64,000 bases of DNA from Candidatus Heritagella gallinarum (GTDB taxonomy: Bacteria; Bacillota; Clostridia; Oscillospirales; Acutalibacteraceae), in contig CAJFNK010000001.1 in NCBI GenBank assembly GCA_904394685.1, positions 1 through 64,000 of the forward strand, read 5' to 3'. Positions 3,478 to 19,872 of the stretch are shown here, one piece after another. Made by a program: the position numbers and the translations under genes. Position 1 is the first letter of the stretch. Every line of letters begins with the position of its first letter. The notes beneath the pieces were generated by a model, which saw nothing but the letters and a program-made list of their open reading frames with translations, had not been told where the DNA came from and did not search any database.

Positions 3478-3920
3478 AACAAAGTATGCCTCCTTCTCAG
3501 GATAATAGTTGTTTTTAGAATAGATGTAAAGGAAAAGTAGAAAGTCCAAAGTTATTTTCTTAAAACAAAATTACATTTTCATTATAACATAATACCCACT
3601 ATTTATCAATAAGTGATCCTATTACAAAAATGATAATATTGTTGGTGTGAGTCTTTAAAGGGATAAACAAGTAAAAGAAGTATATGGCTTTTATTTGCGA
3701 TGATAAGAGATTTAGTTAATAATACAAGTTAAATAAATTGCAGCCTTTAAAATTAATAGTGCAAAAAATAAAAAATCAAAACAAAAATAGAGAATATAGA
3801 ATGATAGTAAACAAAAAATAAAAAACATTCAAAACTTATTTAAAAGGTATTGACATACTCGAAGAAATAAATTAATATATTTAATAAAGATAGTAAATAA
3901 ATGAAAAGGAGGGTACATGA
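3478..3920. other. Very AT-rich intergenic region upstream of the glycoside operon
   Basis: A gap of about 440 bases, far more AT-rich than the surrounding genes. It contains the lipoprotein leader at its left end and a near-consensus rightward promoter at 3850-3878. Poly-A/T runs in 3700-3840 suggest bent DNA or an UP element. I see no open frame with a ribosome site. Confidence 0.7.
3850..3878 (+). promoter_or_regulatory. Promoter of the kinase-GH4-ABC-methyltransferase operon
   Basis: TTGACA (3850-3855) and TAATAT (3873-3878) are spaced by exactly 17 bases, embedded in AT-rich DNA. It is the only strong promoter seen ahead of the seven-gene operon ending at 12769. Confidence 0.85.
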
Positions 3921-4979
3921 GTGGACAAAAACAGGCTGCAAAAGCTGATGCACTCCTCTGTTGATACCATCGTGACCGCCGGGTTTGATGGATATGTAGA
4001 CAGTATCCTTCGGGTGCGATGCCCCGGCGATGGTTTTTTTTCCACCCTCAGGGAGTTCGGCGAATATATCGCCGGAAAATCTCAGAAAAGCTGTTCTCTG
4101 GAACTGCACAGGGAAGCCCAAAAAATCGGAGGCAATATGCCGATTTTTTCACATGCACTTTCCCGGTTGGGCGTAACTGTCAATTGCGTGGGAGCAATGG
4201 GGTATCCCGAAGTGGTTCCCCTGTTCAAAGGGTTAGGAGAAAGCTGTCGGCTGTTTTCAGTTTCCAATCCCGGACACTGTCAGGCGCTGGAGTTTGATGA
4301 TGGCAAATTGATGCTGGCAGATAACGAGGATATTGAGCAGCTGGATTATGGCACCATGATTCACCGATGCGACAGGGAGCAGCTGGTTTCTCTGTTTGAA
4401 AAAAGCCAGATGATCGTTTTGCTCAATTGGAGCGAGATGAAGGGCAGCCTTTCCCTTTGGAGAGGATTGCAAAAGGAAATTTTCCCCCAGCTTACACCGC
4501 AAAAACGCAGCGCTTTTATCGACCTTTCCGATTGTTCCACCCGTTCCTCTCAGGAAATCCTCGAAGCGGTGGAACTGATCCGTTCTTTTGGCAGCTGCTT
4601 TGATCTTTCGGTGAGCTTTAACCGCAACGAAGCGGAGCGGGTGGCCGAAGTAGGTGAGCTGGTATATGATACGGTTGATGATCTGGCCATGCAGCTATAT
4701 GAGCTGCTGGGATGTAACCGGCTAATCATCCATCTGGTAGACGGCAGCTATTGCGTACATCAGGGTCATGTCCATGTACAGAGTAACCGCCACATCGAGC
4801 ATCCCGTGCTTTCAACCGGTGGAGGAGATAATTTTAACGCCGGTTTCGTATATGGGCTGCTGAGAGGTCTGGATTGTGATGAATGTATTGCTTTTGCACA
4901 TGGGGTTTCCGGATATTATGTTTCCCATGGGCATAGCCCCTATCCCGAAGAACTGCTGTCATGGATGACAGACGGCTAA
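3921..4979 (+). CDS. PfkB-family carbohydrate kinase
   Basis: A sugar or nucleoside kinase of 352 residues. The C-terminal PfkB signature is present as STGGGDNFNAGF, with Asp303 as the predicted catalytic base and the GGGD anion hole. The N-terminal GFDGYVDSI and the QKIGGNMPIFSHAL segment match the substrate-binding part. The GTG start at 3921 is preceded by GGAGGG at 8 bases; the overlapping ATG at 3917 runs into a stop. First gene of the operon, followed by a GH4 glycosidase, so it probably phosphorylates the sugar or aglycone freed in the cytosol. The actual substrate cannot be read from the sequence. Confidence 0.85.
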   Translation: MDKNRLQKLMHSSVDTIVTAGFDGYVDSILRVRCPGDGFFSTLREFGEYIAGKSQKSCSLELHREAQKIGGNMPIFSHALSRLGVTVNCVGAMGYPEVVPLFKGLGESCRLFSVSNPGHCQALEFDDGKLMLADNEDIEQLDYGTMIHRCDREQLVSLFEKSQMIVLLNWSEMKGSLSLWRGLQKEIFPQLTPQKRSAFIDLSDCSTRSSQEILEAVELIRSFGSCFDLSVSFNRNEAERVAEVGELVYDTVDDLAMQLYELLGCNRLIIHLVDGSYCVHQGHVHVQSNRHIEHPVLSTGGGDNFNAGFVYGLLRGLDCDECIAFAHGVSGYYVSHGHSPYPEELLSWMTDG

Positions 4980-5038
4980 TAAAACAGGTACTGATCGACA
5001 AGGATTTATAGATGAACTTTAGAAAGGAAGGACATACG

Positions 5039-6418
5039 ATGAAGTATTCCAAACTCAAAATTGCCATTATCGGCGCCGGCAGCGTAAACTTCTGCCCGCC
5101 CACTCTCTCCGATATCCTGCTGAGCGATATGCTCAATTCCCTTCCGCTGGAAGTTTGCCTGATGGATATCGATGAAAAGGCGCTGCGTGTCAGCTCCAAA
5201 TACGCTGGGGAAGCCCTCAAGGTTTCCGGCCGTGACGTGAAGATCTGGTCTACTCTGGAGCTGGACGATGCGGTTCGTGATGCAGATTTTGTCATCACCG
5301 CCATCGAGGTGGAGCGTGAGAACTACTGGTCGATGGACTTCCATATTCCGAGAAGATACGGCTTCCGTCAGGTATATGGCGAAAACGGCGGCCCTGGCGG
5401 TATGTTCCACACCCTGCGCAATCTGCCTCCCATGCTGCACATCGCTCATCGGATGGAAGAACTTTGCCCCAATGCCTGGCTGATTAACTACACCAACCCC
5501 GAAGCCAAGCTGGTGGAGGCTATCAATCGCCTGACCAAGATCCATGCAGTTGGCGTTTGCCATGGCTATGAGATGGGCATGTACCAGATGGCGCATATCC
5601 TGGGCATGAAGCGGGAAGAGATCGATGCAGTTGGTTATGGTCTGAACCATTTTGGCTGGTTCACTTCTGTTACCGAAAAGGCCACCGGAAAAGACCTGTA
5701 TCCGCTGCTTCGTGAAAAAGAAGCCGAATGTCACTGGCTGGCAGACTGGGACGGAATCGGCCTTTCCCGTATGATGTTCCGCACCTATGGCCTGTATCCG
5801 TACCCGGGAACCAACCACATCGGCGAATATATCGCATGGAGCGACGAGTTCCTGGCCAGCACCAAGATCCAGTATTTCTTCGATCCGGTTCGGGAGCATC
5901 CGTGGGAGACCAAAAAGACGCCCCGCTTTGTCTATGATTTCAGCTCCAACCCCACCGGTATCGATATCCACGATAAAAACCTTTCTAAGGACGATGAATA
6001 CGAGAAAATCTTCTCGCTCAAGGAGCCCAAGCTCACCCGTTCGGCTGAATATGGTATCCCGATCATCGAGGCAATCGTGTTCGACCTCAAGCGCTATATC
6101 CCCTCTTTGAATATGCCCAATAAGGGAACCATGCCGGGAATCATGGAGGACATGTGCGTAGAAGGTCCCTGTGTGATCGACGCCGAGGGCGTACATCCCC
6201 AGCCGGTAGAGGCACTGCCCACAGCAATTTCGGCCATGATCAATACCCAGGGAGCTATCCACCGCCTGGTGATTGAGGCTTATGCCGAGAAATCTAAGAA
6301 CAAGCTGCTGCAGGCAATGCTGCTGGATCCCACCATTTCCAACTATAACAATGCAGTTGCCCTGATTGATGAAATGTGCGAAAGACAGAAGGAGATCCTT
6401 CCTCCGATGGAGTGGTAA
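5039..6418 (+). CDS. GH4-family NAD+/Mn2+-dependent glycosidase
   Basis: A cytosolic glycosidase of 459 residues that would cleave a glycosidic bond by the redox/elimination mechanism unique to GH4. Visible features are the Rossmann motif IGAGS (11-15), ENGGPGGMFHTLRNLP (115-130), INYTNPEA (149-156), and the metal ligands Cys174 (CHG motif) and His204 (GLNHFGW). CHS is usual in alpha-glucosidases/galactosidases; CHG variants are, from memory, seen in the uronidase (LplD-like) clade, so an alpha-galacturonide or similar substrate is possible. The ATG at 5039 has GAAAGGAAGG upstream. It sits between a kinase and an LplA-type importer, as in uptake-hydrolysis operons. Confidence 0.88.
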   Translation: MKYSKLKIAIIGAGSVNFCPPTLSDILLSDMLNSLPLEVCLMDIDEKALRVSSKYAGEALKVSGRDVKIWSTLELDDAVRDADFVITAIEVERENYWSMDFHIPRRYGFRQVYGENGGPGGMFHTLRNLPPMLHIAHRMEELCPNAWLINYTNPEAKLVEAINRLTKIHAVGVCHGYEMGMYQMAHILGMKREEIDAVGYGLNHFGWFTSVTEKATGKDLYPLLREKEAECHWLADWDGIGLSRMMFRTYGLYPYPGTNHIGEYIAWSDEFLASTKIQYFFDPVREHPWETKKTPRFVYDFSSNPTGIDIHDKNLSKDDEYEKIFSLKEPKLTRSAEYGIPIIEAIVFDLKRYIPSLNMPNKGTMPGIMEDMCVEGPCVIDAEGVHPQPVEALPTAISAMINTQGAIHRLVIEAYAEKSKNKLLQAMLLDPTISNYNNAVALIDEMCERQKEILPPMEW

Positions 6419-6453
6419 ATAAATTAATTAATTTTTGAAAGGATGAAACCGCT

Positions 6454-8202
6454 ATGAAAAAGTTTTTAGCACTTCTTTTGGCATGCGGCATGATTCTCTC
6501 TTTCGCTGCGTGCGGACAATCCGGCGAGACCAGCTCTGACGACACCGATACTTCCAGTAAAAGCGATTACAATGGCCCTATGTCGCTGGAAGAAGTCAAA
6601 TCCCCCACCAAAGATCCCTATGAAAAATATGACCCTGCTATCACGGTAAGCGTGGTACATACTGCAAACGACGGTGCTTTCTGGTTCCCAGAGGGCGACT
6701 CGATTGAGCAGAACGTTTATACCCGCAGATATGAGGAAGAACTGGGCATCAAGTATGAGTTCAAATGGACCTGCCCCGGCTCTCAGAGCCCAGAAAAGGT
6801 CAACACGATGCTGACTAGCGGCGATCTGCCTGACTTTATGTCGGTTGACCGCACCACCTTTGAAAAAATGTATAAGGCCGGTATGCTGCAGGACATCACA
6901 GTTCCGCTGATCGAATATGCCAGTGAATATACCCGCCAGTATCTGACCGGCGACTATAAATACCTGCTGGATGCCGCTACCAAAGACGGCAAATATTATG
7001 GCATCACCAACGGTTTTGGCTATCAGGACGGCGGCGATATGATCTGGATTCGCAAGGACTGGATGGATAAGCTGAATCTGGAGAAGCCGGAAACAATGGA
7101 AGATCTAGAGGCTATCATGGAAGCCTTTAAGACTCAGGACCCCGATGGCAACGGTGCAGACGACACCTATGCTGTGGCGCTGAACGCTGCTACCCAGGCT
7201 GCTCATGAGTGGACTTTGAACAACTCGTTCTTTAATATGTTTAACTCCTATCCGAATACCTGGTATCAGAACAGCAAGGGTGAGATCGAAGATGGTATGT
7301 TTGGCGAGGAAAGCCGTGAACGCACCCGTGCCGCTCTGGAAAAGGCCGCTGAATACTATCAGAAGGGCTATTTCAACCAGGACTTTGCCACCATGGACTT
7401 TGATATGCGTAACCAGGACATCTATAACGGCAAATGCGGCATTGTGTTTGCGGATGTTTGGGGTGCATACTGGCCTTTGATCCTCCATCTGGACATTGAC
7501 CCCAATGCAGACTGGATTCCCGTACCGGTTGTTAGCGGTGAATATGGTGAAGCCAAGATTGCCCGTGATGCTGCACAGGTACAGAATATTCTGGTTGCCA
7601 CCAAGGATTGCAAGCATCCCGAAGCATTGGTCAAGATGACCAACCTCTATCACGACCTGAACAACAACCCCGAAACCATGGAATTTGAGGAGTACAATAC
7701 CAATTCCGCCGACAGTAACCAGATTTTCCTGGCTTACCCGCTGCCTATCTATAACCCCACCTTTAACTACGAGGGCTATCTCGCAATCAGCGCTGCACAG
7801 GAAGACGGCAAGACCGATGGCCTGTGCGAAGCCTACAAGCAGTTCTACGATCAGGCAATGGACTATGAGAAGAACGGAAACAGCAGCGGATGGTGTGCCT
7901 ATCGTTCCTATCTGGCGGGCGACACCTCTCTGGCAGTCGTTGACAATTATGTGCAGAACAAGCGGATTGTATTCAATGAGTATACCGCTGAAGACACTGA
8001 TTTCATGATTGAAAATGAGCCGACTGTGAAAAAGATGTATGACGAGATGGCAATCAATGTGATTACCGGCAAGGCAGATATTTCTGCATATGACGATTTC
8101 CTGAAGTCTTGGGATGAAATTTATGGCAACACCGCTACCGAAGAAGTGAACAAGTGGTTCCAGGATAACGGCGGTGTCAGCATCCAGAGCTCGCTGGGAT
8201 AA
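6454..8202 (+). CDS. Extracellular solute-binding lipoprotein of a sugar ABC importer (LplA/LipO-like)
   Basis: A lipoprotein of 582 residues with signal peptide and lipobox SFAAC (Cys20). The length and domain pattern fit the large LplA/YtcQ group of family 1 solute-binding proteins, which capture oligosaccharides or glycosides outside the cell. It has a low-complexity linker (about 21-42) after the lipid anchor. It is followed by a stem-loop and two permeases. As usual for this class, no ATPase is encoded in the operon, so a shared MsmX-like ATPase elsewhere is expected. Confidence 0.9.
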   Translation: MKKFLALLLACGMILSFAACGQSGETSSDDTDTSSKSDYNGPMSLEEVKSPTKDPYEKYDPAITVSVVHTANDGAFWFPEGDSIEQNVYTRRYEEELGIKYEFKWTCPGSQSPEKVNTMLTSGDLPDFMSVDRTTFEKMYKAGMLQDITVPLIEYASEYTRQYLTGDYKYLLDAATKDGKYYGITNGFGYQDGGDMIWIRKDWMDKLNLEKPETMEDLEAIMEAFKTQDPDGNGADDTYAVALNAATQAAHEWTLNNSFFNMFNSYPNTWYQNSKGEIEDGMFGEESRERTRAALEKAAEYYQKGYFNQDFATMDFDMRNQDIYNGKCGIVFADVWGAYWPLILHLDIDPNADWIPVPVVSGEYGEAKIARDAAQVQNILVATKDCKHPEALVKMTNLYHDLNNNPETMEFEEYNTNSADSNQIFLAYPLPIYNPTFNYEGYLAISAAQEDGKTDGLCEAYKQFYDQAMDYEKNGNSSGWCAYRSYLAGDTSLAVVDNYVQNKRIVFNEYTAEDTDFMIENEPTVKKMYDEMAINVITGKADISAYDDFLKSWDEIYGNTATEEVNKWFQDNGGVSIQSSLG

Positions 8203-8224
8203 TTGATTTAGTCAGGTAACAGCT

Positions 8225-8266
8225 GGTGCGGAGTTGGGAGGAAGCATTTCATTTCAGCTCCGCACC
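8225..8266 (+). promoter_or_regulatory. Intra-operon stem-loop between binding protein and permease
   Basis: Arms 8225-8236 and 8255-8266 pair over 12 bases (one G:U) around an 18-base loop. No T-tract follows, so it is more likely an mRNA-stabilising or partial-attenuation hairpin. Such hairpins keep binding-protein mRNA in excess over permease mRNA. Confidence 0.75.
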
Positions 8267-8290
8267 TGAATCTTAAAGGCGGTGAATGTA

Positions 8291-9196
8291 ATGAAAAAGG
8301 GATTATCTGCTTCATTTAAAAGGCAGATACCACTTTATCTGATGATGCTTCCTCCCTTTCTCCTCGTTCTGATATATTCCTATGGCCCAATGTTCGGTCT
8401 GGTCATGGCGTTTCAGGATTTTGAGCCCACGCTGGGTTTCTTTGGATCAGAATGGGTAGGGCTGGATAATTTTGAAAGATTAATGCAAATCCCCGATATC
8501 TGGGGCGTGGTACGCAACACCTTCTTTATTGCGACCATGAAAATCCTGATGGGGATGATTTGCGCTATTATCGTGGCGATCCTGCTCAATGAACTGGGCA
8601 ATAAGGTCTATAAACGCACAGTACAGACCATCATTTATGCCCCGTATTTCCTTTCCTGGGTAATTTTGGGCGGAATTTTCCGTGAATTTTTGGCTCGTGA
8701 CGGCCTGTTCAACCTGATTCTTTCTCAAGTAGGGATTCCTTCGGTCAACTATCTGGGAGAAGCTGCTGCATTCCCCTGGGTGATTATTATCACAGACCTC
8801 TGGCAGAACACTGGATTTAACGCCATTGTCTATCTGGCAGCGATTACCAATATCAATCCCACCCTCTATGAAGCGGCGGCGATTGACGGTGCCGGCCGGT
8901 TCAATCAGGTGATGAAGATCACCATCCCCGGCATCATGCCCTATATCATCCTGATGCTCATCCTCAACATGGGCTATGTCCTCAACGCTGGACTCGACCA
9001 GATCCTGATGCTGTATTCTCCAAGTGTATACAGTACCGGCGACGTAATCGATACCTGGGTGTATCGTGCAGGTCTAAAAGATAACCAGTATTCATTGGCG
9101 GCGGCGGTTGGCCTGCTGCGTTCGCTGGTGAGCTTCGTACTGGTATCCGCATCGTATCTGATTGCCAAAAAGAAGTTTGGCTATAACGTATTTTAA
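8291..9196 (+). CDS. ABC sugar transporter permease (LplB-like)
   Basis: An inner-membrane permease of 301 residues with about six transmembrane segments. The binding-protein-dependent transport (EAA) motif is visible as EAAAIDGAGRFNQVMKITIPGI in the cytoplasmic loop. The ATG at 8291 fits AAGGCGGTG about 6 bases upstream; a GTG at 8282 is possible. It pairs with the permease at 9213 and the lipoprotein at 6454 to form the importer. Confidence 0.92.
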   Translation: MKKGLSASFKRQIPLYLMMLPPFLLVLIYSYGPMFGLVMAFQDFEPTLGFFGSEWVGLDNFERLMQIPDIWGVVRNTFFIATMKILMGMICAIIVAILLNELGNKVYKRTVQTIIYAPYFLSWVILGGIFREFLARDGLFNLILSQVGIPSVNYLGEAAAFPWVIIITDLWQNTGFNAIVYLAAITNINPTLYEAAAIDGAGRFNQVMKITIPGIMPYIILMLILNMGYVLNAGLDQILMLYSPSVYSTGDVIDTWVYRAGLKDNQYSLAAAVGLLRSLVSFVLVSASYLIAKKKFGYNVF

Positions 9197-9212
9197 GGGA
9201 GGGAGAAAAAGA

Positions 9213-10094
9213 ATGGTAACAAAAACACCAGCCCGCAGGGCCTTTAATGTGGTGAACATCCTGTTCTTTGTTCTCTGCTCCGCCGTCTGTCTGGTTCCGA
9301 TTATCTATATCCTGTCCATGTCGCTCAGCTCCAGTACAGCTGTGAGCGCAGGCAAGGTAACACTGTTTCCGGTGGAGTTCACACTGAAATCATATGAATA
9401 TGTTTTGCAGAAAAAAGAATTCTGGAGCGCTTTTATAATTTCTATTGAGCGTGTGCTGCTCGGCGTAGGAATCAATATGCTAATGGTAATTTTGGCAGCG
9501 TTTCCTCTTTCCAAGCAGAAAAAGGATTTTTCCAGCCGCACCTTTTTTGTCTGGTTCTTTATGATAACCATGTTGTTTAGCGGCGGCATGATCCCCACTT
9601 TTATGATCGTCAAATATACATGGCTGCTCAATTCGATCTGGTCCCTAATTCTTCCCGGAGCAGTTCCTGTGTTCAATATGGTGCTGTTGATGAACTTTTT
9701 CAAGGCAGTGCCCAGAGAGCTGGAAGAAAGCGCCTTTATTGATGGTGCCGGATATTTCCGCATCCTGTTTAAGATCTACATTCCGATTTCGCTTCCTGCC
9801 ATCGCCACTTTGGTGGTGTTTACCATGGTGTCCCATTGGAACTCCTGGTTTGATGGCATGATCTATATGAGCGACGCCAGAAACTATCCTCTGCAAACCT
9901 ATTTGCAGTCAATCCTGGTATCGACTAATACCAAGCTTATGACGAAGGCGCAGGCCGAGCTGCTGCGGTTGATCTCAGACCGCACCCTGAAAGCAGCACA
10001 GGTGTTTATCGCCATGATCCCGATTCTGCTGGTATATCCGTTCCTGCAAAAATATTTTGTGGCAGGCATGACATTGGGGAGTGTCAAAGAATAA
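9213..10094 (+). CDS. ABC sugar transporter permease (LplC/YtcP-like)
   Basis: Second permease subunit, 293 residues, with multiple hydrophobic segments and the EAA loop ESAFIDGAGYFRILFKIYIP. The ATG at 9213 follows GGGAGG; the open frame extends upstream into the previous gene without support. The stop codon lies inside an 18-base tandem duplication (10077-10112). Confidence 0.92.
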   Translation: MVTKTPARRAFNVVNILFFVLCSAVCLVPIIYILSMSLSSSTAVSAGKVTLFPVEFTLKSYEYVLQKKEFWSAFIISIERVLLGVGINMLMVILAAFPLSKQKKDFSSRTFFVWFFMITMLFSGGMIPTFMIVKYTWLLNSIWSLILPGAVPVFNMVLLMNFFKAVPRELEESAFIDGAGYFRILFKIYIPISLPAIATLVVFTMVSHWNSWFDGMIYMSDARNYPLQTYLQSILVSTNTKLMTKAQAELLRLISDRTLKAAQVFIAMIPILLVYPFLQKYFVAGMTLGSVKE

Positions 10095-10112
10095 GGGAGT
10101 GTCAAAGAAAAA
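10077..10112 (+). repeat. 18-base tandem duplication across a stop codon
   Basis: The unit GGGAGTGTCAAAGAATAA at 10077-10094, which ends with the permease stop, is repeated at 10095-10112 with two changes at its end. The second copy is non-coding. It looks like a recent slippage duplication. Confidence 0.85.
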
Positions 10113-10186
10113 ATAGTCCGCTGTGTTTGGCGGCCGGAAGAACTGTATGAAACCGGAGGAGCTGTATTAAGAAAGAGAGGGATTGT

Positions 10187-11344
10187 GTGAAAAATCAGAT
10201 GGATTTCCGAGAGCACAATCGGGAGGTCAGAAAGCTCTGGGAGGATTTTTCCAAGGGAGTCCACCAGCGTGTCCCCATGATTACCGGTATTTCCGACCGA
10301 TTTTATGTGCTGAACCCCATAACCAACCCCAAAGACGTTTCCTTTTATGAATATTCCAACGACCCGGAGCTGATGTTTGAGATGCAGTGCCGGTTCAGTG
10401 AATACGCAAAGTTCAATATCGTGGGCGACCATGAAATGGGTATCCCGGAAAACGGCTGGACCGTAAATGTGGATTTTCAGAATTATTATGAAGCCGCATG
10501 GCTGGGCGCCGAGGTCTGCTACCCCGACCACGACGTCCCCTATGCAGTCCCCCTGTTGAACGACGACAACAAGGAAATATTGTTCCATAAGGGAATTCCC
10601 GATCCCTTTGGCGGGTTTATGGCCAGAGCGAAGGAATATTACGATTATTTTGTGGAACGCAGTAAAACCACGCAGATACTGGGACAAAAAATCAGCGACA
10701 TCGGGGCGTGGTTTACCACTACCGACGGCATGTTTACCGTTGCCTGCGAGCTGAGAGGTCCCGACAATCTGTGTATCGACATGTATGAAGACCCGGACTA
10801 TTACCACCAGCTGATGGAGTACCTGACAGAATGTACCATCACCCGCATGAAGGCATGGCGGAAATATATGGGCAAGCCGGAGATCGAAAAGTCGTTTGGA
10901 TTTGCCGATGACAGCATCCTCTTGATCTCTAACGATATGTATAAGGAGTTTGTGCTGCCTTATCACAAAAAACTGGCTTCTGCTTTGTCTACCATGGAGG
11001 AGCGTGGCGGCGTCCACCTTTGTGGGGATGCCACCCGGCACTTTAAGACCATCCGGGATGAACTGAACATCTATTCTTTTGACACCGGCTTCCCGGTCAA
11101 TCATCGGGAGCTGTGTCTGGAACTGGGGGATGAGGTCACCATTCAGGGCGGCCCCTGCGCCCAGCTGATCCACAGCGGCACCCCGGAACAGATCGAGGCA
11201 GAATCCAAGCGGATTCTGGAAGAAGTTAAGCCGGTTTCCCGAAAGTTTATTTTCCGGGACGGCAACGATATCCCGCCCTATACCCCCATGGAAAACATCA
11301 AGGCTCTGCGGGACGCTTGCCTGAAATATGGTTGGTATGAATAA
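10187..11344 (+). CDS. Uroporphyrinogen decarboxylase-fold (MtaA/CmuA-like) methyltransferase
   Basis: A UroD-superfamily protein of 385 residues, the fold of methylcobamide-dependent methyltransferases such as MtaA, MtbA and CmuA rather than of heme synthesis. The HxC zinc motif is present (VHLCGD, His277 and Cys279). The usual third ligand, in the motif GCDIPPxTPxENI, is Asn360 here (GNDIPPYTPMENI). The GTG start at 10187 follows GAAAGAGAGG. It sits directly upstream of an MttB-type methyltransferase, so it probably takes the methyl group from, or loads it on, a corrinoid protein. Acceptor and exact direction are unknown. Confidence 0.8.
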   Translation: MKNQMDFREHNREVRKLWEDFSKGVHQRVPMITGISDRFYVLNPITNPKDVSFYEYSNDPELMFEMQCRFSEYAKFNIVGDHEMGIPENGWTVNVDFQNYYEAAWLGAEVCYPDHDVPYAVPLLNDDNKEILFHKGIPDPFGGFMARAKEYYDYFVERSKTTQILGQKISDIGAWFTTTDGMFTVACELRGPDNLCIDMYEDPDYYHQLMEYLTECTITRMKAWRKYMGKPEIEKSFGFADDSILLISNDMYKEFVLPYHKKLASALSTMEERGGVHLCGDATRHFKTIRDELNIYSFDTGFPVNHRELCLELGDEVTIQGGPCAQLIHSGTPEQIEAESKRILEEVKPVSRKFIFRDGNDIPPYTPMENIKALRDACLKYGWYE

Positions 11345-11365
11345 GTATTTAATTGGAGGATTTAT

Positions 11366-12769
11366 ATGAGAAAGATTCAAACATCCCTCAAAGTTCTGTC
11401 TGACGACGAAATCTTGATGATCCACAACGCCTCGCTGAAGGTGTTGGCGAATATCGGCATGAAGGTTCCCAACGACGAAGTGCTGGGAATGTGCGCCGAC
11501 GTGGGCTGCCAGGTAGATATGAATACCAAGGTGGTAAAGTTCCCGGTCAAAGTGATGGAACAGTTCCTGGACAAAATGAAGCGGGAAAGCAAATATAAGA
11601 TTGCCGACGAAGCCCAGCAGCTCAGCGGCTGGATTTCCACACAGGTAACACTGGCGGATTATGGAACCAAGCAGCGCCGTTATGGCCTGCGAGACGACAA
11701 CCTCAAGATCATCAAGTTGGTGGAGCATCTAAAGAACATCCCGGTGTGTAATGCAGCGGTGGTTCCTTCCGACGTTCCCTATGACATTGCCGATGTGGTG
11801 AGTATTGTCGACATCCAGAAATATTCCACCAAGCCGGGCGGCACCTATATCCTGACCCCCACCGGCGCCAGGTATGTGGCACAGATCAACAAGGTGCTGG
11901 GTCTGCGTGACGGCTATCTGTTTGAAACGATCAGCCCCCTGACCTTTAAGCCTGACACGGTGGAAATGGCACTGGAATTTGCCAAAAACGGCGGCGGGCT
12001 GGGTATTGCGCCTATGGCTATGAGCTCTGCCACCGCTCCGGTCACCATCAGCGGTACGCTTACCGTTGAAACAGCCGAGGTGCTGGGAAGCAGCTTCCTC
12101 GTTCACATGATGACCGGCGAGTATCCCGGATTCTCTGCGTCCTGCCACTCCATCGACCCCAAAACCATGCTTTGCTCTTTTGGCTCTCCCAACCAGGCGC
12201 TGTTTGGCGTGGCAGCGGCACAGATGGCACGCTTCTATGGCATCAGCGGCGGCACCAACACCGGCCTGACAGACGCACTGGTACCAGACTTCCAGGGCGG
12301 CTTGGAAAAGGGCATCACCGCGGCGTTTAACAGCCTGAGTGGTTCTTGCAGCATTGGCTGCCAGGGCATTGTGGGCGCTGACCAGGGCTTTAGCTATGAG
12401 CAGCTGGTTATCGACAACGAATGGCTGGATTATTATAACTACATCACCCGTGGCTTTGAAGTCAGCGAGGAAACCATTGGATACGACGTTATCGAAGAAG
12501 TCGGAATTGCCGGCAACTTCTTGGGCGAAGAACACACCGTGGAACACCTGCGTGACAGCTATTGGGTATCCGATATCTTTAACCGTGACGACTGGAGCAA
12601 CTGGGTCGCCAAGGGACAAAAGGATATTTATGACCGTGCTCATGAGTTTGTGGAGCGTGTCACCGCCGGATATCGTGAGATGACGCCGGTGCTGGATGCT
12701 TCTCTGTGCGCTCAGCTGGACGACATCGTAAAAGAGGCTTATGCCGAAATGGAGAGCCGGAAGTCCTGA
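11366..12769 (+). CDS. MttB-superfamily corrinoid-dependent methyltransferase (non-pyrrolysine)
   Basis: A protein of 467 residues with the MttB fold. Family members move a methyl group from a quaternary or tertiary amine to the cobalt of a corrinoid protein (MtgB glycine betaine, MtpB proline betaine, MtcB carnitine). The frame is uninterrupted, with no in-frame TAG, so it belongs to the non-pyrrolysine majority rather than true trimethylamine MttB. The ATG at 11366 follows TTGGAGG. It is the last gene of the glycoside importer/GH4/kinase operon, an unusual partner for this family. A cognate corrinoid protein is not encoded in the window. Confidence 0.85.
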   Translation: MRKIQTSLKVLSDDEILMIHNASLKVLANIGMKVPNDEVLGMCADVGCQVDMNTKVVKFPVKVMEQFLDKMKRESKYKIADEAQQLSGWISTQVTLADYGTKQRRYGLRDDNLKIIKLVEHLKNIPVCNAAVVPSDVPYDIADVVSIVDIQKYSTKPGGTYILTPTGARYVAQINKVLGLRDGYLFETISPLTFKPDTVEMALEFAKNGGGLGIAPMAMSSATAPVTISGTLTVETAEVLGSSFLVHMMTGEYPGFSASCHSIDPKTMLCSFGSPNQALFGVAAAQMARFYGISGGTNTGLTDALVPDFQGGLEKGITAAFNSLSGSCSIGCQGIVGADQGFSYEQLVIDNEWLDYYNYITRGFEVSEETIGYDVIEEVGIAGNFLGEEHTVEHLRDSYWVSDIFNRDDWSNWVAKGQKDIYDRAHEFVERVTAGYREMTPVLDASLCAQLDDIVKEAYAEMESRKS

Positions 12770-12789: not shown

Positions 12790-12835
12790 AAAAATCCGTT
12801 CCGATGCAGCAGACACTGCGCCGGGACGGATTTTT
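12790..12835. terminator. Terminator at the end of the glycoside-demethylation operon
   Basis: Arms 12790-12802 and 12823-12835 pair with one G:U; the stem extends inward through GCAG/CTGC and ends in a run of T. The A/T-flanked symmetry also serves the convergent nucleoside hydrolase gene. Confidence 0.85.
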
Positions 12836-12847
12836 TATGGTGTAATC

Positions 12848-13786
12848 TTAACGGGAAGCGTGGTCGTCCAGCCGGCGGAAAAGGTCGCCGAAAATCCGGT
12901 CACGGTTCACCTGATTGGCAACCCGGATCAGGTGGCGGGAATCGTCCCGGCTCCAGGTGGCCTGGTCGGTGAGAATGGGGCTGTGTACCAACTGGGTGCT
13001 TACCCCGCCGGGGCAGCAGAGCCATGCAATCACCGAGATATCCCAGATGACACGGGAATAGGCAAAATGGTCGTTGGAGCAGCCACGGTAGCGCATGGCG
13101 AGGAAATCCCCGATATCGCCACGCCCTTTTACAAAGGTGTCGATTTCGGGCAGGGTGGTGATGAGATGGTCTACCACGCCGCCACAGGGCAGCAACACCA
13201 TCGGTACGCCGCAGTCCAGCAGCACCCGTGCAGCGGGGATGTCTTGAATCAGGTTGAATTCCCGTACATTTGGCCAGTAGAGGGCATGGCCGCCCAGCCA
13301 TACGATCACAATTTTATCAATGATATCCGGCGCCAGCAGGACAGCTGAAGCCACGTTGGTGATGGCGCCGATGGCGGCCACATATAGCGGTTCCTCCGGG
13401 GTGGCCTTGCGGGCTTTTTCGATCAGGTCACGGGCGGCCGGGCTGTCCACTGGCGTTTCAGCGCCGGGAAGATACCGGTCGGAGCCTTTGAATACCCGCC
13501 CCTCTGGGGAAACGCCCATGCGGCTGAGGATGCGCAGCAGCTCCTCATAGCTTTTTTCCATGCCGTCGGCCGGACCGGAAGACATCTCGTTAAAGAAGGG
13601 GGCGGCATAAAACGCCTGTACCTCCAGTTTTTCGCTGGCCATCAGGGCATAGACCACGGCAAACTGGTCGTCGATCTCGTTAAAGGTGTCGGTGTCCAGC
13701 ACCATTTTGATTTTTCCGGTGGGGGGCGTCAGCATCCGGATGCGCTGTTCTTCTGAAAGAACGGGGAATTTTGTGTTCATTTCCAT
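12848..13786 (-). CDS. Inosine-uridine preferring nucleoside hydrolase family protein
   Basis: A protein of 312 residues with the Ca2+-binding signature DTDTFNEIDDQFA (Asp31, Asp33, Asp39, Asp40) that defines the IUNH fold, which hydrolyses N-glycosidic bonds of nucleosides to base and pentose. AAIGAITNVA and WLGG further on agree with the family. The ATG at 13786 follows AAAGGAG; ATG 13780 is also possible. It converges on the MttB-type gene. Substrate is not predictable, but an N-glycosidase beside a demethylation operon could act on an N-ribosylated or N-methylated compound. Confidence 0.88.
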   Translation of the reverse strand: MEMNTKFPVLSEEQRIRMLTPPTGKIKMVLDTDTFNEIDDQFAVVYALMASEKLEVQAFYAAPFFNEMSSGPADGMEKSYEELLRILSRMGVSPEGRVFKGSDRYLPGAETPVDSPAARDLIEKARKATPEEPLYVAAIGAITNVASAVLLAPDIIDKIVIVWLGGHALYWPNVREFNLIQDIPAARVLLDCGVPMVLLPCGGVVDHLITTLPEIDTFVKGRGDIGDFLAMRYRGCSNDHFAYSRVIWDISVIAWLCCPGGVSTQLVHSPILTDQATWSRDDSRHLIRVANQVNRDRIFGDLFRRLDDHASR

Positions 13787-14630: not shown

Positions 14631-15590
14631 TTAGTAAATAGCTTCTTCTTTCCAGATTTTTTCCATCATCTCATAACGCTCCAGCGGCATGCCGGTATAG
14701 GCACAGTTGGAAGTGGAGAAGATGAAGCCATAGTTTCCGTCCATGCCTTCCTTCAGGCAGCGGCGAACATCGTCGATTGCTTCCTGTTCGGTGCCGGTTT
14801 GCAGCAGGCCACAGTTGACGTTGCCGATGGTGCAGATGCGGTCGCCATATTTTTTCCGAACTTCGGTCAGGCTCATGTGACCCTGCGGGTCAATGGAGTG
14901 CAGGGCATCGGGACCGCAGGCCACGATCTGGTCGAGGATGGGGTTGATGTTGCCGTCGGTGTGCTTGATGGTGTAGTAACCCAGACGACGGTAGGTGTCG
15001 ATGCACTCCTTGAGGTGGGGCGCTACCAGCTCCTCAAACAGTTCGGGGGCAAAGAAGGGATTCACGTTAAAGGCATAGTCAGAACACAGTGCAAAGCCGT
15101 CGAGCAGGCCGGTGCCAGCGAGGGCAGATGCCTTTTTCTCCATGTTTTCCATCCAGCGGTTCTGCTGATCGTGCAGGCTGTCGGGGTCTTCATACATCTT
15201 GATGGACATTTCCATCATTTCATCGCCCGTGGGGATGCTCAGGGTGGTATCGCCGTGCATCATGATAAAATATTCGTCACCGGTTTTTTCCCGGATGATT
15301 TCCAACAGGCGGCGGGTGTCGTCCAGTTCGCCGGGATTGGGATGCACAAAGATGGCATCGTGCTCATAGCGCTGGGCAGTTTTGATGTAGATGTCTGCCA
15401 TATCCTGCAGGTGCAGTTCCCGCTCTTTGGCGCTCATCTGGTTCCACTGGGAATACTGGCGGTGGGAGGGGTGGACCCGTCCAAATGCTTCCATGGTGAG
15501 GAAGAACACCAGTTCAAACTGGGGGACATGGCCGGTGATCTTTTCCCGGCGAAGGGCCTTTTCAAATCTCTGCTTGTGTGTGTCTGCCAT
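14631..15590 (-). CDS. UroD-superfamily methyltransferase-like protein, HxD/Cys type
   Basis: A protein of 319 residues with the UroD/MtaA fold. Candidate metal ligands are His and Asp in IKHTDGN and a Cys in FSTSNCAYTGMPLERY, a different set from the paralogues at 10187 and 17766. The start MADTHKQRFEKAL at 15590 follows GGAAAGGA; upstream extension overlaps the previous gene and is unlikely. It lies 19 bases downstream of the corrinoid activator gene and is surely co-transcribed with it, which supports a role in cobamide-dependent methyl transfer. Substrate is unknown. Confidence 0.8.
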   Translation of the reverse strand: MADTHKQRFEKALRREKITGHVPQFELVFFLTMEAFGRVHPSHRQYSQWNQMSAKERELHLQDMADIYIKTAQRYEHDAIFVHPNPGELDDTRRLLEIIREKTGDEYFIMMHGDTTLSIPTGDEMMEMSIKMYEDPDSLHDQQNRWMENMEKKASALAGTGLLDGFALCSDYAFNVNPFFAPELFEELVAPHLKECIDTYRRLGYYTIKHTDGNINPILDQIVACGPDALHSIDPQGHMSLTEVRKKYGDRICTIGNVNCGLLQTGTEQEAIDDVRRCLKEGMDGNYGFIFSTSNCAYTGMPLERYEMMEKIWKEEAIY

Positions 15591-15609
15591 AGCTAACAGT
15601 CCTTTCCAT

Positions 15610-17133
15610 TCATTCAGTGCCAAAGCACATTTGTTCAATGTATTGTTCCATAAATACGGGACTGGTGGAAAGTTCAATGAGCGTTGCACGATCCCGTAAA
15701 TTTGTGGTCATCTCACGGTGCTGGGCGTCCAGCATCATCACAGCGCCGGAACCGGCAGCGTTGCCCAATACCTGTACTTTGTTTTCCAGTTCGGGGGGGA
15801 ACATCCCAATCACAGCGGCTGCGTGGGGGTCGATATAGCTGCCAAATCCACCGCAGATATAAAACACATCCACTTTGGAGGCTTCCTGCTCACACTCCTC
15901 CAGCATGGTGAGGATTCCGGCACAGATGGCGGCTTTTGCCAGCTGTACCTGACGGATATCCTGCTGGGTGAGGAACACTCCGCTGTCGCCGATCAGCACG
16001 CAGTCCTCGCCGGAGCCGTCCGGTGCATCCACCGGGTCGGTCAGGGCGCCGGTTTCGTCGATGCCGCCGGTTTCCACCAGCCGTGCTATCAGCGAGATCA
16101 GGCCGCTGCCGCAAAGCCCTTTTGCGGGGACGTCGCCGATGGTGTGCCAAACAAGGTTGCCGTTTTCATCCAGCGAAACCCGGTCGATTGCGCCGGGGGC
16201 GGCGGCCATGCCGTTGTGGATACAGGCGCCTTCCAAAGCCGGGCCGGCAGCGGTGGAGCAGGTGACAAGCTTGCCCTCGTGATAAAGCGCCATTTCCCCG
16301 TTGGTGCCAATATCCGCCAGCAGGGCAGTTTCTTCTTTTTCACACATCTGAGAAGCGGTAATAGCGCACACCATATCTGCTCCCACATAGGCGGAAACGC
16401 AGGGGGGCAGATAGAGCTGGGCGTTTTGGAATGCCGGGAACAGCTGAGCAGCCGGGGTGAATTCTCCAAACAGCGACTGCGGTGTAAAGGGGGAAACCGC
16501 AATCGAGGAGGGGTCAAGCCCCATGAGGAAGTGCAGCATGGTGGTGTTGCCGGTAATGGTGATCTGTTCCACCTGCTCCGGAGCTACCTCATCGCCCAAA
16601 ACCTGCATGAACATCTGCGAGAGCTGCTCTACCACAATTTTTTGCAGCTCCAAGTGGCGTTTTGCCCCAATGCGGGTGATCACATCCGCCCCATGAACAG
16701 ACTGGCCGTTCATCTGTCCGGCGCTCCTTACGATCTGTCCGTTGTGGCAGGCATAAACCGCAATGGTGGTGGTGCCGATATCCACGGCGATCCCCCAGCC
16801 GTTGGCGTTGGCTTGCCGCTGGGTGCCGGTGAGAAGGACTTCGTTATTCTTGCGGCTGGTTTCGGGTAAGTACACGGTACAGTCCCCTACCGCCGCCGCC
16901 GAGCAGGCCATGCGGATTCCCTCAGAAAGCTCCTGCTGGGTGAGCAGGCGGGTTTCTTCCGGCGTAATGGGAGAAAGCGCACCAACCGCTTTGATCTTGC
17001 ATTTTCCGCAGGTGTGGTGGCCGCCGCAGGGCATGGGCAGGCCATAGGGGGCGGTTACAGACGAAAGGGGAATTTCCCCGGAAAAGGGGATGCGCTCACA
17101 GCGTTCCCCGATATGAAGTTCAATAAATGGCAT
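15610..17133 (-). CDS. RACE-type reductive activator of corrinoid enzymes (2Fe-2S + ASKHA ATPase, DUF4445)
   Basis: A protein of 507 residues. The N-terminal plant-type [2Fe-2S] domain has Cys36, Cys42, Cys45 and Cys77 (CGGHHTCGKC and MAC). The rest is the actin-like ATPase/DUF4445 region, with VDIGTTTIAVYAC, LADIGTNGEMALY and CGSGLISL. Such proteins use ATP and an electron to return inactive Co(II) corrinoid to Co(I), as RamA/RACE do. The ATG at 17133 follows AGGAGGAG. First gene of a minus-strand pair with a UroD paralogue, divergent from a DUF2284 gene. No corrinoid protein is near. Confidence 0.92.
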   Translation of the reverse strand: MPFIELHIGERCERIPFSGEIPLSSVTAPYGLPMPCGGHHTCGKCKIKAVGALSPITPEETRLLTQQELSEGIRMACSAAAVGDCTVYLPETSRKNNEVLLTGTQRQANANGWGIAVDIGTTTIAVYACHNGQIVRSAGQMNGQSVHGADVITRIGAKRHLELQKIVVEQLSQMFMQVLGDEVAPEQVEQITITGNTTMLHFLMGLDPSSIAVSPFTPQSLFGEFTPAAQLFPAFQNAQLYLPPCVSAYVGADMVCAITASQMCEKEETALLADIGTNGEMALYHEGKLVTCSTAAGPALEGACIHNGMAAAPGAIDRVSLDENGNLVWHTIGDVPAKGLCGSGLISLIARLVETGGIDETGALTDPVDAPDGSGEDCVLIGDSGVFLTQQDIRQVQLAKAAICAGILTMLEECEQEASKVDVFYICGGFGSYIDPHAAAVIGMFPPELENKVQVLGNAAGSGAVMMLDAQHREMTTNLRDRATLIELSTSPVFMEQYIEQMCFGTE

Positions 17134-17227
17134 AACAGACTCCTCCTGTTCGCAGCGCCTGATTTTGGGATGCTGCTGAAAATTCAAATTCCATCCAAAG
17201 TATAACAAACAGAAAGGAGCGAATACA

Positions 17228-17764
17228 ATGGAATTTTATGAGGATTTTTGTAATTTGATGAGGGAAATCGGTTTTGACGAGGTTGGCATCATGGATGCTG
17301 CCAAAATCAAACTGCTGCCGGAAGTTCGAGCCATGTGTGCCGCCAACCGGTGCGGCGCTTATGGAAAGAAATGGTGTTGCCCGCCCGGATGCGGCACGCT
17401 GGAGGAATGTGAGGAACGAGTGAGGCGATTTGAAAAAGCCGTAGTGATGCTCACCGTCACCCATCTGGAGGATTCCTTTGATTTTGAGGGTATGCAAGAA
17501 GGAAGCCGCCATCATCGGGGGCTATTCCAAAAAGCGATGGAAACAGCCCGTGAGGGCGGCCAGGAAATCCTTCCACTGGGTTCCGGCGGATGCGGCGGGT
17601 GTGAAATCTGCACTTATCCCGACGCCCCCTGCCGTTTTCCCGAAAAGTTCACAGTTCCAATGGAAGCCTATGGCATTATGGTCAGTGATGTGTGCCGTGC
17701 CACCGGGCTGCACTATTGCGGCGGCAACAGCACCGTGACCTATGTTTCTGCGATCCTGTTCTGA
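17228..17764 (+). CDS. DUF2284 predicted metal-binding protein
   Basis: A protein of 178 residues rich in paired cysteines: RCGAYGKKWCCPPGCG, CGGCEICTYPDAPC and LHYCGGNSTVTYVSAILF, the pattern of DUF2284. It probably binds one or two Fe-S clusters. Its biochemical role is not established to my knowledge; the family is often found near corrinoid activators and UroD-type genes, as here. It is divergent from the RACE gene and ends 1 base before the stop of the convergent UroD-type gene. AAAGGAG precedes ATG 17228. Confidence 0.85.
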   Translation: MEFYEDFCNLMREIGFDEVGIMDAAKIKLLPEVRAMCAANRCGAYGKKWCCPPGCGTLEECEERVRRFEKAVVMLTVTHLEDSFDFEGMQEGSRHHRGLFQKAMETAREGGQEILPLGSGGCGGCEICTYPDAPCRFPEKFTVPMEAYGIMVSDVCRATGLHYCGGNSTVTYVSAILF

Positions 17765-17765
17765 C

Positions 17766-18851
17766 TTAGCCGATCAGCTTGTCGCCACGCCACTGACGGA
17801 CGGTGTTGACCATGGCCAGATAGCCCTCTACGGGTACATAGTCCGGGATGGAGTTGCCGGAAGCAAAGGCGATGCCGCCGTGTCCCTTGACTTTCTCCAG
17901 ACAGTCCAGAATATAGTCCCGGATGCCTTCGGGGGTTTCCCGGCAGAGAACGTCGGTGTCGATGCCGCCAAAGTTGCCGATACGGTCGCCATATTTATCG
18001 ACCCACACGCTGAAGTGGGCAATGCCGTCCTCGTTGGAGTGCTTGGCGTCGATGTTGGCCTTTTCGATAATGTCATCGAATACAGAGAACAGGTTGCCGC
18101 AGGAATGGAGCAGGAAGGGACGGCCGGTTTCGTGAACCAGGTCGGTGATGCGCCGGTATTGCGGCAGAATCAGATCGACGATATCCTCGGTGGGAAGCAG
18201 CGTCATGGTGTTAAAGCCCAGATCGTCGCCAAAGCGCAGCACACAATAGGCGTCGGAATATTCTTTCAGGAACCGCTGCCAGATTTTTGCGTGTACCTCG
18301 CCCATCTTGCGGAACAGGTCGGCATACAGTTCCTCGTCGTCGGAGCGCAGAAAGCACAGATCCATATACCCTACCAGATCCTGTACGCACTCAAACACGC
18401 CGTTGCCCACGCCGCCAATCGCCTTCATGCCTGCGGGGCAGGTTTCGGCCAGCATGCGGAATTTGGGGGCAAACCGCTGGAAATACAGCTCGGGCAGCTC
18501 ATCCCAGGGATACTTTTCAAAGTCTTCCCGTGTTTTGATGCAGCCCTCTTTGTGAGCGCCCAGAGCGCCGCCGCCGATCAGGATATCGGTGATACAAAAC
18601 TCCAGAGAGGCGGTATCATAGCCCATCTGTTTCCAGAAGTCCCAATACTGCTTCATGCCTTCCCGCTGGTCGTCCGGATTTTCAGAATCCATCAGGTCAT
18701 AGGGGCGATTGCCCGTGATCTCATAGATGGCGTTGGCTCCGATAATGTGTTCATAGAGCGGGATGCGGGGAACCCACTGGTTCCGGGCGGCGTTTACAAG
18801 ATTGCGGTAGTCAGGTTCAAACCCCTGATACTTGAGAATTTCCATATTCAT
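17766..18851 (-). CDS. UroD-superfamily methyltransferase-like protein, HxC/Asn type
   Basis: About 361 residues, third UroD-fold paralogue in the window. It has the HxC element (LLHSCGNLFSVFDDII), but the position of the third zinc ligand is Asn (FASGNSIPDYVPVEGY), as in the 10187 gene. Three ATGs follow the ribosome site AAGGAG (18854, 18851, 18845); 18851 is listed but 18845, giving MEILKYQGF, is equally possible. It is divergent from an AraC regulator that probably controls it. Role in methyl transfer is inferred from family and neighbours only. Confidence 0.8.
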   Translation of the reverse strand: MNMEILKYQGFEPDYRNLVNAARNQWVPRIPLYEHIIGANAIYEITGNRPYDLMDSENPDDQREGMKQYWDFWKQMGYDTASLEFCITDILIGGGALGAHKEGCIKTREDFEKYPWDELPELYFQRFAPKFRMLAETCPAGMKAIGGVGNGVFECVQDLVGYMDLCFLRSDDEELYADLFRKMGEVHAKIWQRFLKEYSDAYCVLRFGDDLGFNTMTLLPTEDIVDLILPQYRRITDLVHETGRPFLLHSCGNLFSVFDDIIEKANIDAKHSNEDGIAHFSVWVDKYGDRIGNFGGIDTDVLCRETPEGIRDYILDCLEKVKGHGGIAFASGNSIPDYVPVEGYLAMVNTVRQWRGDKLIG

Positions 18852-18972
18852 CATACTCCTTACCCCGTGCATTCTCAAAAGCACTGTTTACTTTTATTAT
18901 AAACCCCTGCGCCGGATTTTCTATGGAATTGCCTATTTGAAATCTGGACAAATCTATTTAGGAGGCTGCTCC

Positions 18973-19872
18973 ATGAATCAAACGCCCATCATAATGGAAA
19001 GCGTGACCGATACCGATCAGCTGCCCAATTACCCCATCGAATTCTATCGTTCGCAAAACTATCGGTATCTGGATACCGCATTTTTGCACTGGCATTTTTG
19101 CTGCGAGATGATTTTTCTCCACACCGGGGAACAAAGGGTCAAGATTGGCGGGGATTCCCTTACGCTTTCGGCGGGAGAAGCCATCTATATCCATCCCCGA
19201 CAGGTGCATGAATTTGTTAACACCAGCACCACTGGTACCGACCTCACCCTGTTAAAGTTTGATACCGCCCTTTTGCTCTCACAAAAATCCTTTGAGGCCG
19301 AGGAGCAATATCTGCGCCCGGTTTTGCCCGAAAGCGGCTATCGTTGCCTGATATTCTCCGACGGCACCCAAAAGGCGCAACCCTGGCTTGAGCTGCTGGC
19401 CAAAGAGGAGCGGGAGCGCAGCTTTGGGTTTGAAACCCGGATGCGGAATGTAATCTGTATGATGATTTCGGAGATGGTGCAGCAGGTGCCGGATTCCCCG
19501 GTGAACAGCCTGCGGCTTTCTACCCGGGAGCAGGAAACCTTCAATCAGGTGATGCAGTATCTCTGGGAGCATTTTGAGGAGGATGGGCTGATGGAGCGGG
19601 CGCTGGAAATGTGCAACCTGAGTTACAGCAATTTTGCCGCCAAGTTCAAGGGGATGTTTGGCAAAACCTTTACCGAGTGCCTCAACCAGGTTCGGATCTC
19701 TCATGCACGGCAAATGCTGATCAATTCCAGCGACCCGGTTTCGGTAGTGGCCGAAGCCTGCGGGTATCATGACCCCGGATATTTCAGCCGGATTTTCCGG
19801 AAAATCACCGGGCTGCCCCCACAGGAATACCGGGCGGAGGAGCAGAAGAGGCGGGACTTCATGGAACCATGA
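18973..19872 (+). CDS. AraC-family transcriptional regulator (cupin sensor)
   Basis: A protein of 299 residues. The N-terminal cupin-like domain (about 30-130, LHWHFCCEMIFLHTGEQ, IHPRQVHEFVN) senses a small molecule and the C-terminal 100 residues carry the double helix-turn-helix with the AraC signature (SVVAEACGYHDPGYFSRIFRKITGLPPQEYR). The ATG at 18973 has TTAGGAGG upstream. It is divergent from the UroD paralogue at 17766 and probably activates it. Confidence 0.9.
   Translation: MNQTPIIMESVTDTDQLPNYPIEFYRSQNYRYLDTAFLHWHFCCEMIFLHTGEQRVKIGGDSLTLSAGEAIYIHPRQVHEFVNTSTTGTDLTLLKFDTALLLSQKSFEAEEQYLRPVLPESGYRCLIFSDGTQKAQPWLELLAKEERERSFGFETRMRNVICMMISEMVQQVPDSPVNSLRLSTREQETFNQVMQYLWEHFEEDGLMERALEMCNLSYSNFAAKFKGMFGKTFTECLNQVRISHARQMLINSSDPVSVVAEACGYHDPGYFSRIFRKITGLPPQEYRAEEQKRRDFMEP

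Follow-up and report, generated by a model that had tools for sequence, protein, structure and literature searches.

The window analysed here is a 64,000-nucleotide stretch of contig CAJFNK010000001.1 from Candidatus Heritagella gallinarum. Between positions 3921 and 12769 it carries seven tightly spaced genes, all on the same strand, for a Khk/PfkB kinase, a GH4 glycosidase, a solute-binding protein, two ABC permeases, a UroD-fold protein and an MttB homologue, the last two belonging to families known from vitamin-B12 methyl transfer. Six of the seven were recognised by Pfam and the binding protein was recognised by its PDB relatives instead, in agreement with the gene content given in the initial annotation. 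Genes for a corrinoid protein, a methyl-corrinoid:folate methyltransferase or an ABC ATPase were not found within this set.

The seven genes are one real operon, as the initial annotation had proposed. They are co-directional and close, and a strong intrinsic terminator (hairpin plus U tract, + strand, about 12790 to 12836, fold energy z −4.6) follows the MttB gene, with none before the UroD-MttB pair. The kinase start at 3921 is preceded by AAGGAGG and by a sigma-70-like match, TTGACA-17-TAATAT (3850 to 3878, + strand), that agrees with 10 of 12 consensus positions, a consensus match rather than proof of a promoter. Of the single promoter and single terminator first proposed, the terminator was thus substantiated, just beyond position 12769 where the operon had been taken to end, while the promoter stands as a consensus match only. 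Transcription of UroD and MttB as a separate unit is disfavoured by the sequence of the preceding gap (10095 to 10186), in which no promoter match, no terminator and no unusual hairpin (fold z −0.07) were found. A strong hairpin was present in one of the three internal gaps folded, between the binding protein and the first permease (8225 to 8265, + strand, z −3.7, no U run). Downstream of the operon lies a nucleoside hydrolase gene (12851 to 13786).

Kinase, glycosidase and importer

The first gene (3921 to 4979, + strand, GTG start) encodes a sugar kinase of the PfkB superfamily that was assigned to the Khk family (PF25270, 155 bits against a cut-off of 35; PfkB, 44 bits). No second copy was found by BLAST among the open reading frames of 2.03 of the 2.23 Mb of the genome. 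The next reading frame (5012 to 6418, + strand, likely start ATG 5039) encodes a GH4 glycosidase with both family domains (PF02056, 154 bits; PF11975, 150 bits), the NAD motif and the metal-binding Cys and His, the motifs GAGS, CHG and NHF all being present. In the alignment, the CHG of the metal site is as in the alpha-glucosidase 1OBB, whereas the phospho-type enzymes 1S6Y, 5C3M, 1U8X and 6DUX differ there (CN or CD). By this motif, the enzyme would fit non-phosphorylated sugars and import without phosphorylation. The best model score was obtained with an alpha-galactosidase model, yet under that model's cut-off, and the literature searched gave nothing usable on the substrate of this GH4.

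The binding protein (6454 to 8202, + strand) is a lipoprotein of the carbohydrate type that had no Pfam hit, its profile matching family-1 binding proteins. The matches in the PDB were 5XS8, 5GUB and the alginate-binding AlgQ1/AlgQ2. The structure model was poor (pLDDT 57), and the sequence relatives were used instead for substrate hints; judging by these, the importer's binding protein is of the oligosaccharide type. The permeases follow at 8282 to 9196 (PF00528, 49 bits) and 9162 to 10094 (likely start ATG 9213; PF00528, 30 bits), both on the + strand. In combining ABC import with a GH4 that would act on a non-phosphorylated glycoside, the operon resembles sugar systems of the LplABCD and AglA types. 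Unlike the window operon, these systems have, to our knowledge, no methyltransferase genes belonging to them.

A distinct clade of MttB homologues

The last gene (11366 to 12769, + strand) encodes a member of the MttB superfamily (PF06253, COG5598; 207 bits against a PF06253 cut-off of 25). Its reading frame is free of TAG codons and codes for leucine (Leu301) where pyrrolysine would stand, which bears out its first description as a non-pyrrolysine homologue. With the trimethylamine methyltransferase model TIGR02369 it scored 283 bits, below the cut-off of 525, again with Leu301 instead of Pyl. The superfamily has thousands of members, most of them without pyrrolysine and most with no known substrate (PMC8604678), and the non-pyrrolysine enzymes characterised act on quaternary amines (PMC8604678, PMC12155760).

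The window protein falls into a clade of ten (support 100/100) that is at most 35% identical to the other MttBs sampled. The clade comprises six sugar-linked members (97/96; the window, L029, L028, L040, L041 and L042) and four lone members, here called subclade B (100/98; L032, L033, L078 and L079). L029, a Bacillota MAG, was the sole relative from the contig scan, and the other eight came from whole-genome searches. Such proteins are rare; for example, 2 of the 398 family genomes sampled, our own among them, have one. No close relatives were found on plasmids, where the best among the matches listed reached about 25 to 29% identity, and no relatives were found among viral contigs.

Eighty-six positions are invariant in the clade, and 24 of these residues are shared by no more than 3 of the 30 outgroup MttBs. 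The 24 signature positions include Q93, C270-S271, N276-Q277 and G337-A-D-Q-G341 (D339-Q340-G341). At position 276, 29 of the 30 sampled MttBs outside the clade have the Glu of a GSPE motif, a criterion observed in the present alignment and not a published one, and all ten clade members have Asn. From docking, R309, H345 and F353 have been proposed as the residues by which MtgB contacts glycine betaine (PMC6855144). In a phmmer alignment, once a one-residue difference in chain numbering is corrected for, their counterparts in the window protein are Gly296, Gly331 and Asp339, so that none of the three is kept. Asp339 also aligns with Gly372 of MttB, which sits at the corrinoid rim (PMC9842639). 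The window protein is like the quaternary-amine demethylases MtgB, MtpB, MtcB and MtyB in superfamily and in lacking pyrrolysine, but differs from them in the absence of the three proposed MtgB substrate residues, of the near-invariant Glu and, throughout the clade, of an adjoining corrinoid-protein gene.

The nearest MttB outside the clade, L045 (35% identity), has 10 of the 24 signature residues, compared with 0 to 4 for the other outgroup members. Such sharing may be due to common ancestry (86/72 support) and not to independent matching. The operon of this MttB, as seen in L082 (331 to 13999), contains a polyol-type set of two Gfo/Idh genes, a Zn-ADH, a xylose-isomerase-like TIM barrel and Rbs-like sugar ABC genes.

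The UroD-fold protein

The sixth gene (10187 to 11344, + strand) encodes a UroD-superfamily protein, which was supported both by profile (PF01208, 96 bits) and by fold, the AlphaFold model (pLDDT 92.9) having MtaA and HemE as its nearest folds. In the Foldseek search the best E-value was that of the thiol-methylating MtaA, while HemE structures fitted the model equally well or better by Z-score. The fold is common to MtaA, CdmB, MtvB, OdmB and VdmB, and the HxC motif of the zinc site is shared with MtaA. Unlike MtaA, all five orthologues have Asn360 in place of the third zinc ligand Cys, and the His-Cys-Cys site of the MtaA type is thus incomplete in the operon protein. CdmB is a UroD-family methyltransferase that works without zinc (PMC13222342).

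The operon gene also differs from those of UroD-superfamily methyltransferases in lying among sugar genes with no adjoining corrinoid-protein gene. The type 1 mlp gene clusters are comparable in that they encode UroD-family proteins, are widespread in Firmicutes and have a substrate that is partly unproven, but they encode a corrinoid protein and an activase together (PMC10418091). MttB, ABC transporters and glycosidases are all unmentioned in the text of that paper (PMC10418091).

Recurrence of the gene set

The gene order in L029 is identical to that of the window operon, with identities of 74% for the binding protein, 78% for the permeases, 78% for UroD and 77% for MttB, but of 47% for the kinase and 39% for GH4. 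The window GH4 is 38 to 40% identical to the other four GH4s, which are 61 to 71% identical among themselves, and because of this disparity the GH4 seems to have been swapped for another in the lineage of the window.

Elsewhere the set recurs in other orders. L040 has ROK, kinase, GH4, SIS, MttB, UroD, binding protein and two permeases; L041 has binding protein, two permeases, MttB, kinase, GH4, UroD and ROK; and L028 has MttB, ROK, GH4, a NagB-ROK fusion, PHP, GH127 and UroD with other importers, no Khk kinase being found at that locus. L042 has MttB, NagB, ROK, kinase and a different importer; GH4 and UroD were not found there, on a contig that ends about 1.3 kb past MttB. The ROK genes at L028, L040, L041 and L042 were Pfam-confirmed for the L041 gene and the L028 fusion. 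A gene set that is conserved while its order changes is the usual sign of a common pathway. The gene-order search that the initial annotation had suggested thus returned one identical order (L029) and three reordered sets (L040, L041 and L028), and its proviso that the two halves might adjoin in this strain only does not apply. Accidental adjacency of the two halves was ruled out, since the set recurs reordered in other genera.

Deaminase-type genes occur at three of the six sugar-linked loci, of the NagB type in L028 (fused to ROK) and L042 and of the SIS/NagB-II type in L040. The two types are unrelated families, both of the glucosamine-6-phosphate-deaminase type, and their presence points to an amino sugar phosphate. 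Away from the operon, our own genome has a NagB that is 45% identical to that of L028.

Around the four subclade B genes (L032, L033, L078 and L079), GH4 or UroD was not seen nearby. The L032 region (5408 to 10461) has its lone clade MttB near ethanolamine ammonia-lyase genes, with PHP and PIG-L also there, and the L033 region contains a KDG kinase and a KDPG aldolase.

Possible corrinoid partners

In the DNA fetched, a corrinoid-protein gene was found at none of the 10 clade loci, compared with 15 of 31 other MttBs with one within 1.5 kb. Besides MetH, our own genome encodes one stand-alone corrinoid protein, on contig C25, that is best matched by MtgC models. In E. limosum, one corrinoid protein serves several MttBs (PMC8604678).

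Outside the operon, the window contains a RACo-like gene for the reductive activation of corrinoid proteins (15613 to 17208, − strand; PF14574, 239 bits; PF17651, 136 bits), the only copy found by BLAST among the open reading frames of 2.03 of 2.23 Mb. It is a possible partner of the operon in trans. The activase gene is overlapped by a second UroD-fold gene (14634 to 15689, − strand; PF01208, 77 bits), and the region from 14634 to 19869 further includes DUF2284, a third UroD and an AraC regulator. When 2.03 of 2.23 Mb were queried with the folate domain of MetH, MetH was the only folate methyltransferase found, in a weak test that missed DHPS too.

Proposed pathway and alternatives

We hypothesize, with slightly less than even confidence, that the operon lets the cell import and degrade a methylated glycoside, possibly of an N-methyl amino sugar, from which the methyl group leaves via a shared corrinoid protein. 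The intact, non-phosphorylated glycoside would be taken in by the carbohydrate-type ABC importer and split by the NAD- and metal-dependent GH4, and the released sugar would be phosphorylated by the Khk-type kinase. The MttB homologue and the UroD-fold protein would then take part in removing the methyl group or groups from the sugar. The acceptor would be the C25 corrinoid protein, re-activated by the RACo-like protein of the window, and the demethylated sugar phosphate would enter glycolysis. We infer the substrate, the order of the enzymes, the corrinoid dependence and the methyl acceptor. The earlier suggestion of an imported compound that is methylated as well as glycosylated is supported, likewise by inference.

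Because a deaminase-type gene adjoins MttB and sugar genes in related loci, we favour N-methylated amino sugars as the class of substrate. The more specific proposal, that the MttB clade and its UroD partner demethylate a methylated (N-methyl amino) sugar and not a free betaine, by way of a single corrinoid protein that also serves many UroD enzymes of the cell in trans, is somewhat doubtful. A precedent for a kinase with an MttB is the demethylation of phosphocholine by MthK/MthB of E. limosum (PMC12155760). In that MthK-MthB-MthC-MthA choline pathway a kinase gene is likewise linked to an MttB-family gene, and the substrate is phosphorylated ahead of demethylation, as proposed for the window operon (PMC12155760). 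It differs in having a choline kinase and its own corrinoid and folate proteins, and in having no glycosidase and no sugar importer.

Several points argue against the proposed pathway. Clade residues near the active site differ, and the reaction may differ too; the corrinoid dependence is assumed for loci that lack a corrinoid-protein gene; the deaminase genes are absent from the window operon itself; the window GH4, as divergent as it is, may cleave something else; the four subclade B loci have no GH4 or UroD nearby; and MetH was the one folate-binding methyltransferase found, by the weak test above.

In the literature searched, no description was found of MttB or UroD with glycosidases, glycoside import, methylated sugars, N-methyl amino sugars or methyl-inositols, which upholds the initial view that no pathway of such composition had been described. 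The component families are known, while the combination and the MttB clade appear new. The recurrence of the reshuffled set in other genera suggests an undescribed pathway for methylated sugars. The association of the conserved clade with sugar import, GH4 and amino-sugar genes offers a definite class of substrates, other than quaternary amines, that assays can address and, if true, would connect the one-carbon metabolism of Clostridia with methylated sugars.

It is unlikely that the substrate is instead an O-methylated sugar or polyol, such as an O-methyl-inositol galactoside or a methyl-hexose, with UroD as the O-demethylase and MttB as an accessory or second demethylase. The UroD superfamily does include the O-demethylases MtvB, OdmB, VdmB and MtoB (PMC13222342). 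Carbohydrate loci of this genome repeatedly include UroD genes, the MttB of L082 lies in a polyol-type set, and the sub-threshold alpha-galactosidase score of GH4 would also be consistent. Against this, we know of no MttB with O-demethylating activity, the literature searched gave no report of either family demethylating O-methyl sugars, and the amino-sugar deaminase genes would be left unexplained.

Slightly less likely still is a glycosylated quaternary amine, one of the readings of the initial annotation, in which GH4 would free a betaine- or choline-like aglycone for demethylation by MttB and the kinase would handle the sugar. The known activities of non-pyrrolysine MttB-family enzymes (PMC8604678, PMC12155760) and the MtgC-like corrinoid protein are in its favour, but it leaves the NagB and SIS neighbours unexplained and the binding protein is of the oligosaccharide type. 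The betaine analogy is weakened further by the replacement of the MtgB contacts by Gly, Gly and Asp and of the Glu by Asn276, in a distinct clade. Since the sugar-linked homologues sit with glucosamine-6-phosphate-deaminase-type genes, a glycosylated betaine is no better a fit to them than a methylated amino sugar or polyol would be.

It is improbable that UroD is the second methyltransferase, taking the methyl group off the corrinoid protein and handing it to a thiol or folate, with only MttB meeting the substrate; this would be compatible with the proposed sugar pathway and differs from it on the role of UroD. The Foldseek match to MtaA and, by the weak test above, the failure to find a folate methyltransferase of the MtgA/MtqA type are consistent with such a role, but the third zinc Cys of MtaA is absent from all five orthologues and HemE matches equally well or better by Z-score. 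Departure of the MttB clade and its UroD partner from corrinoid chemistry to another step of sugar metabolism is also improbable, for although corrinoid-protein genes are missing from the clade loci, Glu has become Asn276, the corrinoid-rim Gly372 (PMC9842639) has become Asp339 and the third zinc Cys of UroD has become Asn, the genome retains one MtgC-like corrinoid protein and an activase, E. limosum shares one such protein among several MttBs (PMC8604678) and zinc is dispensable in CdmB (PMC13222342).

Other UroD genes of the genome

Fifteen URO-D genes were counted in the 2.2 Mb genome, on contigs C1, C8, C19, C21, C24, C25, C65, C77 and C79. Neither this number, nor the activase and two UroD genes close downstream of the operon, nor the missing corrinoid-protein gene had been noted in the initial annotation. 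Several of the fifteen are in carbohydrate loci, with GH43, GH38, an NTP-transferase and an APH-type kinase on C8, after GH13 and GH127 on C79, and with a LacI-like gene and Gfo/Idh on C65. On C25 (L022, 206 to 7827), the MtgC-like corrinoid protein is accompanied by a PocR/AraC regulator, a UroD with a thioredoxin-like tail, a CobW GTPase and a radical SAM gene.
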